DNA from: a virus
IMG/VR virus record: IMGVR_UViG_3300009136_000029
Coordinates: 1 to 28,266 of that record
Direction: 5' to 3' (one strand)
Length of the DNA stretch: 28,266 nucleotides
Within the stretch, counting starts at the first letter, position 1, and every line of letters starts with the position of its first letter. A program made the position numbers and the translations under genes. Under the pieces are notes generated by a model. That model saw nothing but the letters and a program-made list of their open reading frames with translations, was not told where the DNA came from and ran no database searches. Shown piece by piece: positions 2,416-7,769 of this stretch.

Positions 2416-2493
2416 ATGCCAAACCAAGAACAACTAGACGCATACTGGAAAGAAGAAGACGAATGGGAGTTGCAGGACTTCGCGTGGGGTTAA
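2416..2493 (+). CDS. Very small acidic ORF, 25 residues
   Basis: ATG at 2416 follows GAGG at 2407-2410 by 5 bases and encodes a 25-residue peptide rich in Glu, Asp and Trp (MPNQEQLDAYWKEEDEWELQ...). It is the last gene of the + strand operon. Its TAA (2491-2493) overlaps the stop codon of the converging - strand gene. A longer in-frame ORF starting at 2272 would lie inside the previous gene and has no better start signal, so the short form is preferred. The function is unknown. Confidence 0.5.
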   Translation: MPNQEQLDAYWKEEDEWELQDFAWG

Positions 2494-2906
2494 CGCTTAG
2501 ACTTCTTGCACTCTTCTGTAGGGTATGCACAAACGGCCTTTACATCGTCTTTAGAAGGGCAGGGTTTATTAATTGACTGCAATGCGTCTTTAATGATTTT
2601 ACTTTGACATAAAACCGCGTGAGCTGCTTCATAATCGCCTATAGCTATGTATATCTTTGAAAACTCTCTTATGTTACAGGGTTTACTTTCCTTAGTGCCA
2701 CCAAGTGATAAACCTAAAAATTGGCGTTGAACACCTGCGCTATAAGACCCCAGGCAATCACTTGTGCTTACAATAGTTGGAGCGTTTGCACTCCTGACTG
2801 GTTGCTTGTCACCTTCAATAACAATGTTTTTATTATTGCTGTAGTGCCACGGGACGGCCAATGAAAAAGATGGTAATAATATTAAAACTATTAGTAATCT
2901 AATCAT
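2490..2906 (-). CDS. Secreted small phage protein of the lysis region, unknown function
   Basis: A 138-residue protein with a clear N-terminal signal peptide (MIRLLIVLILLPSFSLA, no lipobox Cys). The mature part contains about six Cys and a conserved-looking core: 'SDCLGSYSAGVQRQFLGLSL' then 'CNIREFSKIYIAIGDYEAAH' and 'VLCQS'. Proteins with the pattern C-x-G-S-x-S-A-G-V ... C ... A-x-x-x-x-C occur in proteobacterial phages and genome islands without a known role. Export, paired Cys and position just after the holin suggest an envelope function during lysis or superinfection; that is inference. AAGGGG precedes the start by 7 bases. It is the last gene of the - strand operon. Confidence 0.85.
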   Translation of the reverse strand: MIRLLIVLILLPSFSLAVPWHYSNNKNIVIEGDKQPVRSANAPTIVSTSDCLGSYSAGVQRQFLGLSLGGTKESKPCNIREFSKIYIAIGDYEAAHAVLCQSKIIKDALQSINKPCPSKDDVKAVCAYPTEECKKSKR

Positions 2907-3301: not shown

Positions 3302-3670
3302 CTAACTATCAATTTCAAAGTGAGGCATATCTTTAAGATTTTTAAAGTCACCGCCCCACTTTAGTTTAACACCGTATTTAAACGCTATAGCTTCTATTGT
3401 ACCAGCTAATCTAGCAAAACGCTCTGTATCATTCCAATCTATAGGATAAGGGGCTATATCAACCGCCATTGAAGGGTGGCTATTATGCTTAGACTCACCC
3501 CATTTCGCACCGCTTGCGCCTTTTTCATAAGCTTTGTTTTGGTCTACCTCATTTCTGTGACCACATAAAACTGTAAAGTCAGTTATCTTGATTGCCTCTT
3601 TGCATATAACCTGCAATTTCTCGTGGCATGAGTTTAGTTTACCTTGTGATTTATCGCTGAATTTATTCAT
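3302..3670 (-). CDS. Endolysin, M15-family peptidoglycan peptidase
   Basis: A 122-residue zinc peptidase expected to cut peptide links in the host cell wall. The M15 zinc site is complete: SKHN..PSMAVD supplies the first His and the Asp, and KDMPHFEI supplies the second His with the D-x-P-H catalytic Asp. An N-terminal 'CGHRNEVDQNKAYEKGASG' also fits the family (R-x-x-x-x-Q-x-x-x-x-x-G-x-S-x). I chose the ATG at 3670 because AAAGG lies 9 bases upstream of it; the GTG at 3676 would place that site too close. It overlaps the upstream membrane protein gene by 8 bases and is followed by the holin, a compact lysis cassette. Confidence 0.93.
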   Translation of the reverse strand: MNKFSDKSQGKLNSCHEKLQVICKEAIKITDFTVLCGHRNEVDQNKAYEKGASGAKWGESKHNSHPSMAVDIAPYPIDWNDTERFARLAGTIEAIAFKYGVKLKWGGDFKNLKDMPHFEIDS

Positions 3671-4055
3671 AACCACGCACCTTTAATTGCTCTTTTATAT
3701 TAGCTATATCTTCCTTATTTCTCGCTACATCTTCCTTGTTTCTCTCTCCATCTTCCTTGTTTCTCTCTACGTTACTTTGCAGCATTTTGTAAGCTGATGT
3801 AGCTTTCTCTCTGCCTACGTCCAGCCTATTATACAACTGGTTTATTCTGTCGTTAGTGGCAATATTCATAATACCTATATCACCACGAAGAAGCTTTAAT
3901 TCTTCAGTGTTTGTATTTGTTGCTTTTATTTGGAAATTTCCAATAACACCCAATGTGCCAACTAGAACAGTTACAAAAAAAGCAATTACCCATGTTAAAT
4001 ATTTATTCTCAGCTCTCAACACGGAAGCTGTTATATCTAATTTTCCTTCAGTCAT
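3663..4055 (-). CDS. Membrane-anchored coiled-coil protein of the lysis cassette (spanin-like candidate)
   Basis: A 130-residue protein. It has a short cytoplasmic N-terminus, one transmembrane helix (about residues 19-41) and then a long charged helical region to the C-terminus, predicted to be coiled coil. Residues 96-116 are three near-identical seven-residue units (VERNKED, GERNKED, VARNKED), a perfect heptad repeat. This topology matches an inner-membrane spanin, and the gene lies immediately before the endolysin. No recognisable outer-membrane spanin with a lipobox is seen. Alternatives are a holin-like or anti-holin membrane protein. The function is inferred from topology and neighbours only. 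Confidence 0.8.
   Translation of the reverse strand: MTEGKLDITASVLRAENKYLTWVIAFFVTVLVGTLGVIGNFQIKATNTNTEELKLLRGDIGIMNIATNDRINQLYNRLDVGREKATSAYKMLQSNVERNKEDGERNKEDVARNKEDIANIKEQLKVRGYE
3708..3770 (-). repeat. Three tandem 21-base units encoding heptads
   Basis: Three adjacent copies of a 21-base unit (3708-3728, 3729-3749, 3750-3770), differing at only a few positions, encode the R-N-K-E-D heptads of the membrane coiled-coil protein. The unit length is a whole number of codons and of coiled-coil turns, so copy-number change would lengthen or shorten the coil without shifting the frame. Confidence 0.9.
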
Positions 4056-4058
4056 GTC

Positions 4059-4700
4059 TTATAGCCCCAAAGTTGTTTTAATTTCAGTCAATAAAGTAGG
4101 ATATTCAGCAAGGATAATACCAAGATTATGTGCATTATCGTTTTCAATATTATTACTAGCTCGTACATCAAAACGCGCACTTTTGAAATGCTTGGTTAAG
4201 CTTGCCATCGTATCAATAAGGCTTGGATAGTTTTCAGTCCCCGCAATTGGAACAATCTTATCATTCACCATATGGAAATGATATACTGGACCAGTATAAT
4301 CAAATTCTTCTGTAGCTAAATAAGGAGCGCATAAAGTAGTAATACTCGCAAAGTTAAATTCATCTAAGTATGCGGCCGCTTTGTAACACATCGCACCGCC
4401 ACCACTATGACCAGTTAGGCTTATTTTTGTTAAATCTATAATGTCATAATCCGCTTTTACAGACAATAGCAAACTGTGAATATAAGCAACATCATTAGAC
4501 TCACTACCCGCTTTCCATAGTTTTGTTTCTTCCGCACTAACATAAAGAATGTACGAATTTGGGTAAATATCTTCTAGCTTTATCGCGTTTTGAAAAGAAG
4601 CGGGCGCACCATAACTACCATGAAACGCCATGATTAACGACCCATCAGGAGCCGTTGGTGCTACTAAAATATTTGTTCTATTTTGAAATATATAATCCAT
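4059..4700 (-). CDS. Alpha/beta-hydrolase, LpqC / polyhydroxybutyrate-depolymerase-like esterase
   Basis: A 213-residue serine hydrolase. Visible elements in order are an oxyanion HG motif (MAFHGSYGAP, His27-Gly28), 'DVAYIHSLLLSVKADYDIID', the nucleophile elbow LTGHSGGGAMCYKAA (Ser99), a possible acid Asp147 in HMVNDKIVP, and the catalytic His191 in NDNAHNLG. The spacing matches the feruloyl-esterase / LpqC / depolymerase group, but there is no signal peptide and the length is short. It sits between the tail adhesins and the lysis genes, so a virion-borne or lysis-time activity that deacylates a host surface polymer is plausible; the substrate is unknown. The ribosome binding site is GAGGA before the ATG at 4700. 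Confidence 0.9.
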   Translation of the reverse strand: MDYIFQNRTNILVAPTAPDGSLIMAFHGSYGAPASFQNAIKLEDIYPNSYILYVSAEETKLWKAGSESNDVAYIHSLLLSVKADYDIIDLTKISLTGHSGGGAMCYKAAAYLDEFNFASITTLCAPYLATEEFDYTGPVYHFHMVNDKIVPIAGTENYPSLIDTMASLTKHFKSARFDVRASNNIENDNAHNLGIILAEYPTLLTEIKTTLGL

Positions 4701-4718: not shown

Positions 4719-5000
4719 TTAATCTAATAATCCATCATCAGGAAACCAACCAACAGCTTTAACTTGCGCATCTATATATACCGTCGAAGCAGCCCTTCCA
4801 CCTTCGTCAAACTGCCATATGTAATCGTCGTTATTTGTAGGGTGTGCTATAGGTTTCGAGTAATGTGTGGTTCGCGGCCTAGTGGGTGCAAGCTTACCTC
4901 TAAGGTAAGTTATTTTCCCCCCTTCTGGTATACCGAACCTAACCTTCATTGCCGTGTGTTCAGTAATATATTCCGCTAATGTTCCTCTGTGCCATCCCAT
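4719..5000 (-). CDS. Small protein of the tail cassette, unknown function
   Basis: A 93-residue protein with no family I recognise. It is Gly-, Pro- and Trp-containing and beta-prone (VRFGIPEGGKITYLRGKL; DDYIWQFDEGGRAAS), with no signal peptide or membrane segment. It starts one base after the stop of the LamG adhesin gene and is followed by the esterase gene, so it is probably a small tail component or a chaperone or partner of one of those two. Ribosome binding is likely through a GGGG tract within the last codons of the adhesin gene. Confidence 0.75.
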   Translation of the reverse strand: MGWHRGTLAEYITEHTAMKVRFGIPEGGKITYLRGKLAPTRPRTTHYSKPIAHPTNNDDYIWQFDEGGRAASTVYIDAQVKAVGWFPDDGLLD

Positions 5001-5001
5001 A

Positions 5002-6714
5002 CTAAAAACCCCATTTTTCTGTTAAGTAGTCCTCTACCTCTGTAGACTCAGCGCCAGAATGTAACCCTTGGTAAACGAGTATTTCAAACATATAACCAAG
5101 ATATCCGCCAACGCCACTGTTCCTAGCGTTTATTTTTAGCGAGGATAAACTATCTGAACCCGCAAGAACGGCTGTAGAGCCATCGCTCACACCATTCATA
5201 AAAATTTCTAGCGTACCGGCCCCAGATAAGTCCTGTTCTATTCTATGTATATAGTTTGTATCTGCTACAACTGACGATGTGCTTTGAAAGTCATTAATTA
5301 TATTGTCGCCCGTTATTACTCTAAACTTAGCGTTATTGTTTATTCCAAATAACAAGTCGATATCCGTATTACCGCCGTTACCTTTTTCATACATAAACCT
5401 AAACTCACTGTCAACTGTGGTTGGCCTATGTGCAATATATACCGTGAAATCACCCGTGGATAGGTTTAAGCTGCTATCGTGCGGAACCTCCAAGAAGTCG
5501 TTAGCCCCAAAGTTTATAGCACTAAGACCATTTTGCACCCCTGTCGTATAAACAGGCTGTGAACTCGCGGTTCCTTGAGCGCCTACATGTGTATTCGCTG
5601 AAATGCCATTCCATGAAGTAATATTTTCTGATACATCCCTTCCCACTTCGTCAGACTCATTACCCCTCATCCACAAACTTAAATCATCCGTTGGGATGTC
5701 AGGCACAGTTGCGACGTACGTATCGTTATGCCTAGTGCCTAATTGAGTGGCAACAATCGCCATTTGCGCGTCCGTTAAGTTCCCATTAAACATGTCAAAG
5801 CTTCGCACCCTTGAGTCGTTTGCAAGTGGTAATGTACCGCCACCATAAGCGCCTATATAAAACTCATTCGCGCTTGCTGTGGAGGTTGTGGTATTAAATG
5901 TGTCTGTTGCAGTTAAGCCGAGTGAACTATTAAGCCACACCGTAGACTCGTTAGTACTATGTTTATGAGAAACGGCAAGAAAGTTCCACTCGTCTGCATT
6001 TAAAGTTCCATTCGTTTCAATAGTTGTTGAATTTCCGCTATCGCCTCTTTGCAGCATCTTTAATTTATCGTCGGCAGCGAGGGTATACATCATAACCCCT
6101 TTGTTGGTAGTTCCCGCTTGTCTATTTGTTGCAAATACAGTATTTGCACTTTTATAGTAAACAGTCATTACCATAGTGTAATCTGCACCGCCCGTGGTCT
6201 TGTGTATAGCGTCTAAGAATGTACTTAGAGCGTTATCCCCTGCAAAACTGTCGTTGTTAAATGAGAAGTAGGCCGCTGGACTTCCTGCTGTTCCCGTGAA
6301 AGTTGGCGCACCGACACCAGTTCCAAAGTCGTATTCCGCTTGCAACTCTCCATCCGCAGGGGTTGGCTCTACATTCAAAAAGCTAGTCCCAGTACCAGGA
6401 TAGGAAGTTGCGAAAGTTGCGTCTAAATCAAACACACAACTAGCAACAAAATCACCCATAGGTAAGTTTAATAAGCTTGTTACATCGTGCCAACTCGCCA
6501 CCCCTAGTTGGGTTGCGAAATCCGCCTTTAAATCGTTTATATTTGTTGAGCTTGAGCCTGTTTGTTGTTGTAACCATGCAATAAAGCGTCCGTTGAATTC
6601 ACCAGAAGCTATACTAGCCGCGTCAAATAACGCCATCCAGTCCTCGTTATATGAGCCTGTCGTACTTGTAACAGCTCTCACCGCCGCTTGTCTTAATTCT
6701 TGGTTTGTACTCAT
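5002..6714 (-). CDS. Tail adhesin with two LamG / concanavalin-like lectin domains
   Basis: A 570-residue virion protein. Residues 1-85 form a helical head (ELRQAAVRAVTSTTGSYNED ... WLQQQ), probably for attachment or assembly. Residues about 95-335 and 345-570 are two jelly-roll domains of the LamG/concanavalin type. The first ends 'GNLTDAQMAIVATQLGTRHN' and the second ends 'EILVYQGLHSGAESTEVEDY' plus LTEKWGF, a typical LamG ending. It probably binds a surface glycan. I moved the start to the ATG at 6714, which overlaps the upstream stop as ATGA and has AGGAGG 7 bases upstream; an earlier frame start at 6747 lies inside the preceding gene. Confidence 0.88.
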   Translation of the reverse strand: MSTNQELRQAAVRAVTSTTGSYNEDWMALFDAASIASGEFNGRFIAWLQQQTGSSSTNINDLKADFATQLGVASWHDVTSLLNLPMGDFVASCVFDLDATFATSYPGTGTSFLNVEPTPADGELQAEYDFGTGVGAPTFTGTAGSPAAYFSFNNDSFAGDNALSTFLDAIHKTTGGADYTMVMTVYYKSANTVFATNRQAGTTNKGVMMYTLAADDKLKMLQRGDSGNSTTIETNGTLNADEWNFLAVSHKHSTNESTVWLNSSLGLTATDTFNTTTSTASANEFYIGAYGGGTLPLANDSRVRSFDMFNGNLTDAQMAIVATQLGTRHNDTYVATVPDIPTDDLSLWMRGNESDEVGRDVSENITSWNGISANTHVGAQGTASSQPVYTTGVQNGLSAINFGANDFLEVPHDSSLNLSTGDFTVYIAHRPTTVDSEFRFMYEKGNGGNTDIDLLFGINNNAKFRVITGDNIINDFQSTSSVVADTNYIHRIEQDLSGAGTLEIFMNGVSDGSTAVLAGSDSLSSLKINARNSGVGGYLGYMFEILVYQGLHSGAESTEVEDYLTEKWGF

Positions 6715-7769
6715 GTTATATCCTCCTCGTGGCATCCAGAAAAGCATGTGAATCGTAGCAATCCAGATAAATCGTCATTTATTGTCACAGTGATTACCCT
6801 GGCCTCTCTTGAATCTAAAACGATTGGCACTTCTTGCGCTTTAAAATCAAATGCAACCGTTACGAATGTGTTTGTGCCGTCATCTATTTTATTAACTATT
6901 CTACCCGTTAATGATAGAAAATCCCCTAGGTTACGCACTACTCCCGACACGTCGGAGTCAGTTAAATTTACACCTATGCCATTCGCTAAAGTAGATATAG
7001 CACCTATTTTATTATAAGCAAAGGCTGTAATACCCGTGCCAACATCCGCCCAACTAAATTCCAGTGTATTAACGTGTAGTTTTGTTCCAGCGCGAGGCTT
7101 TAGAGTGTAAATTAATGGTTCCCCGAATTCTTCAATCTGTATGTCATCAAAATAAATTGTAGGCCTTGTGCCCCCACTTCTTGTTATAATAATATCTAGT
7201 TCATCAACTGTAATATTGTCAATCTCTAAATCAGATTTTGGAATAACAAAAGATTGATAAGAGCCAAGAAGTGAGGTGTTAATATAATCATTTAAACTCA
7301 CAGGAACACCAACATTTACCCCGTTATTTTGGAACTGTAATAATATACTATTGTTTAATGCGCTATATATCTGCAAATTAACTTGACCAGTTATAGCTGT
7401 GTAACCGCTCATGTCTATCTCGCCAGCATCATTAAACGTTGCTGTGCTTAAATTGATTGCACTTGTAACAGTTACCGCCGCGCCGCCACTAACGCCAACA
7501 CCTGCCGCTGCAAAATCCCACGTACCTAACACAGCCGCACCAGTCCAGCCCGTAGCGTCCCCACCATTATGGATTAACTCTGGCGTGCCAGTAAACGCAA
7601 CGTTCTGATTCATCGCTGAGCCAAATGTCTCATTAATTAAAAACTGCCCCGCTAAAAGACTAGTGAGCATAGGCTCCGTATACACCATTTGCCCCACACC
7701 TTTCTCCTTGGTGTATAGTTCGGCAGGCTTATGCGAGTCGTTACCTATAATAAAGGTGTTTATTGTCAT
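6711..7769 (-). CDS. Virion beta-sandwich protein with carbohydrate-binding-like domain
   Basis: A 352-residue protein of the tail cassette. After a 50-residue start, the region from about 60 to 215 looks like a galactose-binding / carbohydrate-binding jelly roll: 'WDFAAAGVGVSGGAA', 'EIDMSGYTAITGQVNLQIY', 'VPVSLNDYI..SLLGSYQSF', 'VDELDIIITRSGGTRPTIYF' and DDIQIEE. The rest (about 215-352) is a second beta-rich domain. There are no catalytic residues I can point to. Its start overlaps the upstream stop by four bases (ATGA), and its own stop overlaps the LamG adhesin start in the same way, so the proteins are probably made in fixed ratio. Confidence 0.82.
   Translation of the reverse strand: MTINTFIIGNDSHKPAELYTKEKGVGQMVYTEPMLTSLLAGQFLINETFGSAMNQNVAFTGTPELIHNGGDATGWTGAAVLGTWDFAAAGVGVSGGAAVTVTSAINLSTATFNDAGEIDMSGYTAITGQVNLQIYSALNNSILLQFQNNGVNVGVPVSLNDYINTSLLGSYQSFVIPKSDLEIDNITVDELDIIITRSGGTRPTIYFDDIQIEEFGEPLIYTLKPRAGTKLHVNTLEFSWADVGTGITAFAYNKIGAISTLANGIGVNLTDSDVSGVVRNLGDFLSLTGRIVNKIDDGTNTFVTVAFDFKAQEVPIVLDSREARVITVTINDDLSGLLRFTCFSGCHEEDIT

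Follow-up and report, generated by a model that had tools for sequence, protein, structure and literature searches.

The gene at positions 4059-4700 on the minus strand of the window (the whole 28,266-nucleotide stretch of viral DNA that was analysed, of environmental origin, from IMG/VR record IMGVR_UViG_3300009136_000029) encodes a 213-aa protein. With a probability of roughly 0.5, we take it to be an active serine ester hydrolase, encoded apart from the tail fibre and acting as its partner, that would remove acyl groups from a host surface glycan much as the SGNH deacetylases of phage tails do. In many phages, the range of hosts infected depends on acyl groups that decorate the capsule or O-antigen. 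Those tail deacetylases for which the literature surveyed gives experimental proof are SGNH domains inside the fibre. If our reading holds, a separate non-SGNH enzyme encoded beside the fibre escapes searches for fibre domains and would be an overlooked determinant of host range.

Coding status, catalytic residues and predicted fold

The esterase gene is a real coding gene under purifying selection. It starts with ATG, with AGAGGA about 8 nt 5′ of this codon. Between the homologous esterase genes of phage contigs L005 and L010, differences at codon positions 1, 2 and 3 numbered 32, 15 and 100, giving dN of 0.117, dS of 1.90 and dN/dS of about 0.06, a ratio taken from this pair because the other homologue pairs were saturated. 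The preliminary description had held that the protein lacks a signal peptide, and this was borne out by a hydropathy scan (used here rather than a signal-peptide predictor), in which the first 45 residues contained no hydrophobic leader; the maximum over 15 residues was 1.3, compared to 2.1-2.4 in two bacterial relatives with leader-like N-termini (L007 and L008).

The same description had proposed an oxyanion HG motif, Ser99 in GHSGG, Asp147 and His191 as the hydrolase set, all of which were located at these residues. The alignment of nine proteins covered the window protein, the phage homologues from L002, L005/L006 and L010/L015, the two bacterial relatives and three esterases of a second phage family described below, and had only 11 invariant columns. 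Among these are H27 and G28 of the predicted oxyanion hole (codons at 4617-4622), the predicted nucleophile S99 (AGT, 4404-4406), the predicted catalytic acid D147 (GAT, 4260-4262) and the predicted catalytic base H191 (CAT, 4128-4130), all on the minus strand. Their presence among so few invariant columns supports the reality of the triad more strongly than any other result.

A structure first predicted with two sequences was of poor quality (pLDDT 53.5) and was set aside. AlphaFold2 with the nine sequences gave a model with pLDDT of 85.9 and pTM of 0.87, in which S99 occupies the nucleophile-elbow position, preceded by strand 93-98 and followed by helix 100-111, D147 comes after strand 139-144, and H191 is found between strand 175-180 and helix 193-199. 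By residue order and position in the model, Ser, Asp and His come after strands 5, 7 and 8, together with the oxyanion HG motif; the three residues thus take the canonical order and positions of a triad, and the opposite outcome considered in the preliminary description did not arise. Structure matches of the model (Foldseek, with E of about 1e-9, and VIA-align) were ester hydrolases over the whole chain, with Z of 17-20 across 176-202 residues. They included B. cereus carboxylesterase 2h1i (Z 20.0, 188 residues aligned, rmsd 2.5), acyl-protein thioesterase 1 (Z 19.4, 185, 2.4), acetylxylan esterase 9j08 (Z 19.0, 201, 2.7), PHB depolymerase 8daj (Z 18.8, 196, 2.5) and feruloyl esterase 8jh8 (Z 17.7, 190, 2.6). 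Structure prediction and Foldseek, both suggested beforehand, therefore agree on an alpha/beta-hydrolase with a canonical triad, and the window protein is predicted with good confidence to be a complete one. Since carboxylesterases and thioesterases score largely the same as carbohydrate esterases among the top matches, the fold does not select a substrate; no match favours glycan esters above other esters, which counts against a glycan deacylase.

Relation to the LpqC and PHB-depolymerase group

The window protein matched NF050058 with E of 2.3e-6 (2.1e-12 for the L005 protein), scoring 27.3 bits against a curated cut-off of 150, and kinship with TIGR01840 was also seen for the esterase group. 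PF10503 was not among its Pfam matches, and searches of Pfam, PHROGs and, with the single sequence, PDB gave weak or partial matches only. Matches to PRA-CH (E 0.004) and Lipase_3 (E 0.0017) did not reach the cut-off and were regarded as chance or generic. A profile made from phage members alone found only generic lipase fragments, and one including the two bacterial members found strong feruloyl-esterase and PHB-depolymerase matches; because the latter profile contains bacterial members, these matches are read as kinship with the wider group only. The bacterial relatives, L007 from Bacteroidales and L008 from Flavobacteriales, both carry hydrophobic leaders, and L008 additionally has a type 9 secretion sorting domain. 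Judged by sequence, the window esterase is related to the LpqC/PHB-depolymerase group, a kind of enzyme usually secreted by bacteria, as a divergent form of minimal size and without a leader. Thus, of its initial designation as LpqC/depolymerase-like, the affinity to NF050058 stands, as a remote kinship and not as a family assignment.

Genomic neighbourhood in the window

The minus strand of the window encodes, in this order, a 352-aa protein, a 581-aa LamG protein, a 93-aa ORF, the esterase, a 130-aa protein and an M15 peptidase, with intergenic gaps of 18 nt and 3 nt flanking the esterase gene. The 581-aa protein (5002-6747) has a LamG/concanavalin-like lectin domain (PF13385, 4.8e-12) and matches a virion structural protein family (phrog_10356, 3.5e-8), and is thus a probable tail adhesin and the likely partner of the esterase; searches of IMG/VR for it by exact-peptide patterns found no relatives. 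It is separated from the esterase by the 93-aa ORF (4719-5000), which had no family match, and this separation counts against a tail partnership. The 93-aa product may be a chaperone or linker. Downstream of the esterase are two neighbours that we do not claim for the system: the 130-aa protein (3663-4055), with one transmembrane segment and a tail that is charged, rich in repeats and coiled-coil-like, and the endolysin (3302-3676; PF13539, 3.8e-8; phrog_465, 1.5e-35). The initial placement of the gene between a lectin-like tail protein and lysis genes is therefore correct. The C-terminal tail of the 130-aa protein repeats the motif RNKED(G/V)(E/A), and this protein is possibly lysis-related. 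The window terminase has its nearest counterpart in Pseudanabaena phage Pam5 (46%), and was not found in the records of L002 or L015, both of which are fragments.

Phage homologues recur beside fibre or adhesin genes

Whichever pattern was used to scan IMG/VR, one small set of phage homologues emerged, in L002 (56%), L005/L006 (53%, with esterases identical to each other) and L010/L015 (53%). Homologues are thus not confined to bacteria; such confinement would have spoken against the preliminary description. No esterase match was found in plasmid records, and 50,697 phage records yielded only cyanophage proteins, at E of 0.8. In L002, the gene ahead of the esterase encodes a LamG-like protein with 40% identity to the window adhesin over 260 aa, and in the part of this contig available, matches to the window are limited to the adhesin, the esterase and a small ORF. 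This small ORF lies downstream of the L002 lysis genes and is 48% identical over 86 aa to a 138-aa ORF of the window (2490-2906, minus strand) with a probable leader.

L005, L006 and L015 are T7-like phages, having the N-terminal domain of the T7 tail fibre (PF03906), and in both L006 and L015 the esterase is the sole protein in common with the window. The gene order of L015 is T7 fibre, a 94-aa protein, a 71-aa TM-like protein, a 115-aa protein, a 414-aa tail fibre (phrog_24456, 7.6e-8) and the esterase, followed by a small ORF, the terminase large subunit, a 178-aa ORF and an amidase. The stop codon of the 414-aa fibre gene and the start codon of the esterase gene have one base in common (TAATG). 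Comparison of L005 (4200-4310) and L006 with L015 (6276-8001) revealed a deletion of about 1.6 kb, by which most of the 115-aa and 414-aa tail-fibre genes is gone; in L005 the scar consists of the last fibre codons, directly before an intact esterase gene. As L005 and L006 keep the esterase, it has no strict dependence on that fibre.

Searching for the motif GHSNGGMM added six phage contigs, L017-L022, spanning 39-67% GC and carrying a distinct family of esterases of 316-352 aa (L017:5075-6091, L018:4127-5104, L019:216-1208, L020:4396-5454, L021:11779-12729 and L022:5523-6344, the last being cut at the contig edge with its upstream side missing). In a profile comparison, the two phage families are linked through 49 columns around the nucleophile (E 1.2e-7) and nowhere else. 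Five members of the second family were scanned and had no PHROG, and three were tested without a match in phage records; for both families, scanned members had no PHROG of their own and tested members no full-length match in the 50,697 phage records. The start of the esterase gene overlaps the stop of the preceding gene in L017, L020 and L021, and in L017 and L021 this preceding gene is a tail fibre according to phrog_11393. The L018 esterase begins 2 nt past the stop of a 306-aa gene; neither this gene nor the one upstream of the esterase in L020 had a family match. In L019, a tail-collar fibre (PF12571, PF07484) starts about 14 nt after the esterase.

The genes downstream of the esterase vary among phages. 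Across otherwise unrelated phages, the recurrent neighbour of esterase homologues is a fibre or adhesin gene, not lysis genes, in a small sample of about six independent lineages; the proposed survey of the gene's slot thus found it recurring in other phages. Where the preliminary description had left the role as entry or release, the recurrence of fibre rather than lysis genes favours entry.

A cyanomyovirus protein with a related hydrolase domain

In a viral structure library, the esterase model matched best to a cyanophage S-RIM14 protein with a YHYH domain (E 6.8e-9), and a weak tblastn match was obtained to the equivalent S-ShM2 protein, which is phrog_2576. Proteins of this family are an independent fusion, in which a YHYH domain (PF14240, 1.4e-39) is joined to a hydrolase at the C-terminus having HG, GxSNGG, D and H. 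Their gene lies in the baseplate cluster, where a single gene separates it from gp9. YHYH domains have been described as tail- or baseplate-associated (PMC7824862). The Synechococcus phage S-ShM2 gene (L014:556-2274) is annotated as gp7 baseplate wedge initiator, while phrog_2576 is listed as of unknown function. The hydrolase triad of phrog_2576 looks complete, and the gp7 annotation appears questionable.

Proposed role and alternative explanations

According to our proposal, the esterase would be made in the late operon along with the tail adhesin. In the predicted ester hydrolysis, S99-H191-D147 would act as the triad and H27/G28 would lie at the oxyanion hole; this step is strongly supported by sequence and predicted fold. 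The lectin-like adhesin would hold the phage on the host surface polysaccharide, from which the esterase would remove acetyl- or feruloyl-like acyl groups; we infer an acylated glycan as substrate from the lectin or fibre partner, the carbohydrate-esterase relatives and the SGNH precedents. Deacetylation at the adsorption step has precedents in gp41 of phage Aristophanes (PMC8471582), in gp66 of Possum (PMC9569702) and in Klebsiella prophage fibres, where the SGNH hydrolase is sometimes in an adjacent protein (PMC13123978). That the enzyme would act during adsorption, at the virion tail or close to it, is suggested by the fibre coupling and by the fusion in phrog_2576. Against tail action stand the absence of a virion-attachment domain within the 213 aa and the case of L005 and L006, which lost the second fibre and kept the esterase.

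A free 213-aa enzyme that lacks an attachment domain and is independent of one fibre would also suit a different task with identical predicted chemistry, in which a non-virion enzyme deacylates the receptor glycan on debris or the infected cell and so frees progeny at release. Such an enzyme can destroy a receptor, since phage Aristophanes could no longer infect cells that had been pretreated with its deacetylase (PMC8471582). However, receptor stripping alone leaves unexplained the overlaps between fibre stops and esterase starts and the fusion of phrog_2576 in a baseplate cluster, and we regard it as improbable. Scarcely better are the chances of a lysis-associated esterase that passes holin lesions and cuts an envelope ester, for example in O-acetylated peptidoglycan or the outer membrane, to aid release. 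In the window and in L002 the esterase gene directly precedes those of the TM protein and M15 endolysin, a leader would be unnecessary if a holin opens the membrane, and mycobacteriophage LysB is an example of an alpha/beta-hydrolase esterase that a phage employs for lysis (PMC7022511). In L010/L015, however, the small ORF and terminase come next and the amidase lies beyond, and in L018-L022 lysis genes are likewise not adjacent, whereas a fibre usually adjoins. Because lysis neighbours are not conserved, we rank this role below that of a fibre partner.

Just as unlikely as a role in lysis is an intracellular auxiliary enzyme that supplies phage replication by hydrolysing an acyl metabolite or a storage polyester (PHB/PHA) of the host. 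The kinship with NF050058 and TIGR01840, the structural match to PHB depolymerase 8daj (Z 18.8) and the missing leader fit such an enzyme, but the gene belongs to a structural/lysis operon by the fibres and not to the early genes, the best-scoring relatives for NF050058 are secreted and act extracellularly, and the NF050058 scores are far under the cut-off. The divergent sequence and minimal size might even indicate a catalytically dead or purely structural relative; we give this very little credence, as the catalytic residues are all invariant in the phage homologues and in the second phage family, under purifying selection. The fibre-partnered deacylase therefore remains our preferred reading. 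A wider generalization is offered more tentatively, at less than even odds: LpqC-type alpha/beta-hydrolases may have been repeatedly recruited as separate, often translationally coupled fibre partners, a second receptor-modifying class besides the SGNH deacetylases, with the fibre-esterase cassette moving between unrelated phages.

Comparison with known systems

LpqC-type or type 1 short-chain-length PHA depolymerase-like secreted esterases (NF050058, TIGR01840, PF10503; L007 and L008) have the same predicted fold as the phage esterase at about 29% identity, and the catalytic motifs HG, GHSxGG, xND..(I/V)P and H are common to both. In contrast to them, the phage protein is shorter and leaderless, scores far under curated cut-offs and is encoded in a phage tail/lysis operon. 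The literature searched, the coverage of which was incomplete, contained no report of a phage tail enzyme that is an LpqC or a PHB depolymerase. LysB is likewise a phage alpha/beta-hydrolase esterase encoded near lysis genes, but it cuts the mycolylarabinogalactan of the mycobacterial envelope, while the esterase genes described here recur with fibres; a LysB model was absent from the Pfam, PHROGs and NCBIfam matches of the window protein. The C-terminal domain of phrog_2576 (S-ShM2 gp7 and the S-RIM14 YHYH-domain protein) has the same predicted fold and catalytic residues as the window esterase, and differs in being part of a 573-aa YHYH fusion with about 31% identity over 121 residues only. 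The proposed reaction and its place are like those of the SGNH/GDSL tail-spike deacetylases G7C gp63.1, Aristophanes gp41 and Possum gp66. Unlike these, the window protein is modelled as an alpha/beta-hydrolase with a GHSGG nucleophile in mid-sequence rather than an SGNH/GDSL fold, its activity is a predicted one, and it is the product of a separate small gene instead of a domain of the fibre polypeptide. By this analogy, the window esterase probably works as the SGNH tail deacetylases do, without being one of them.
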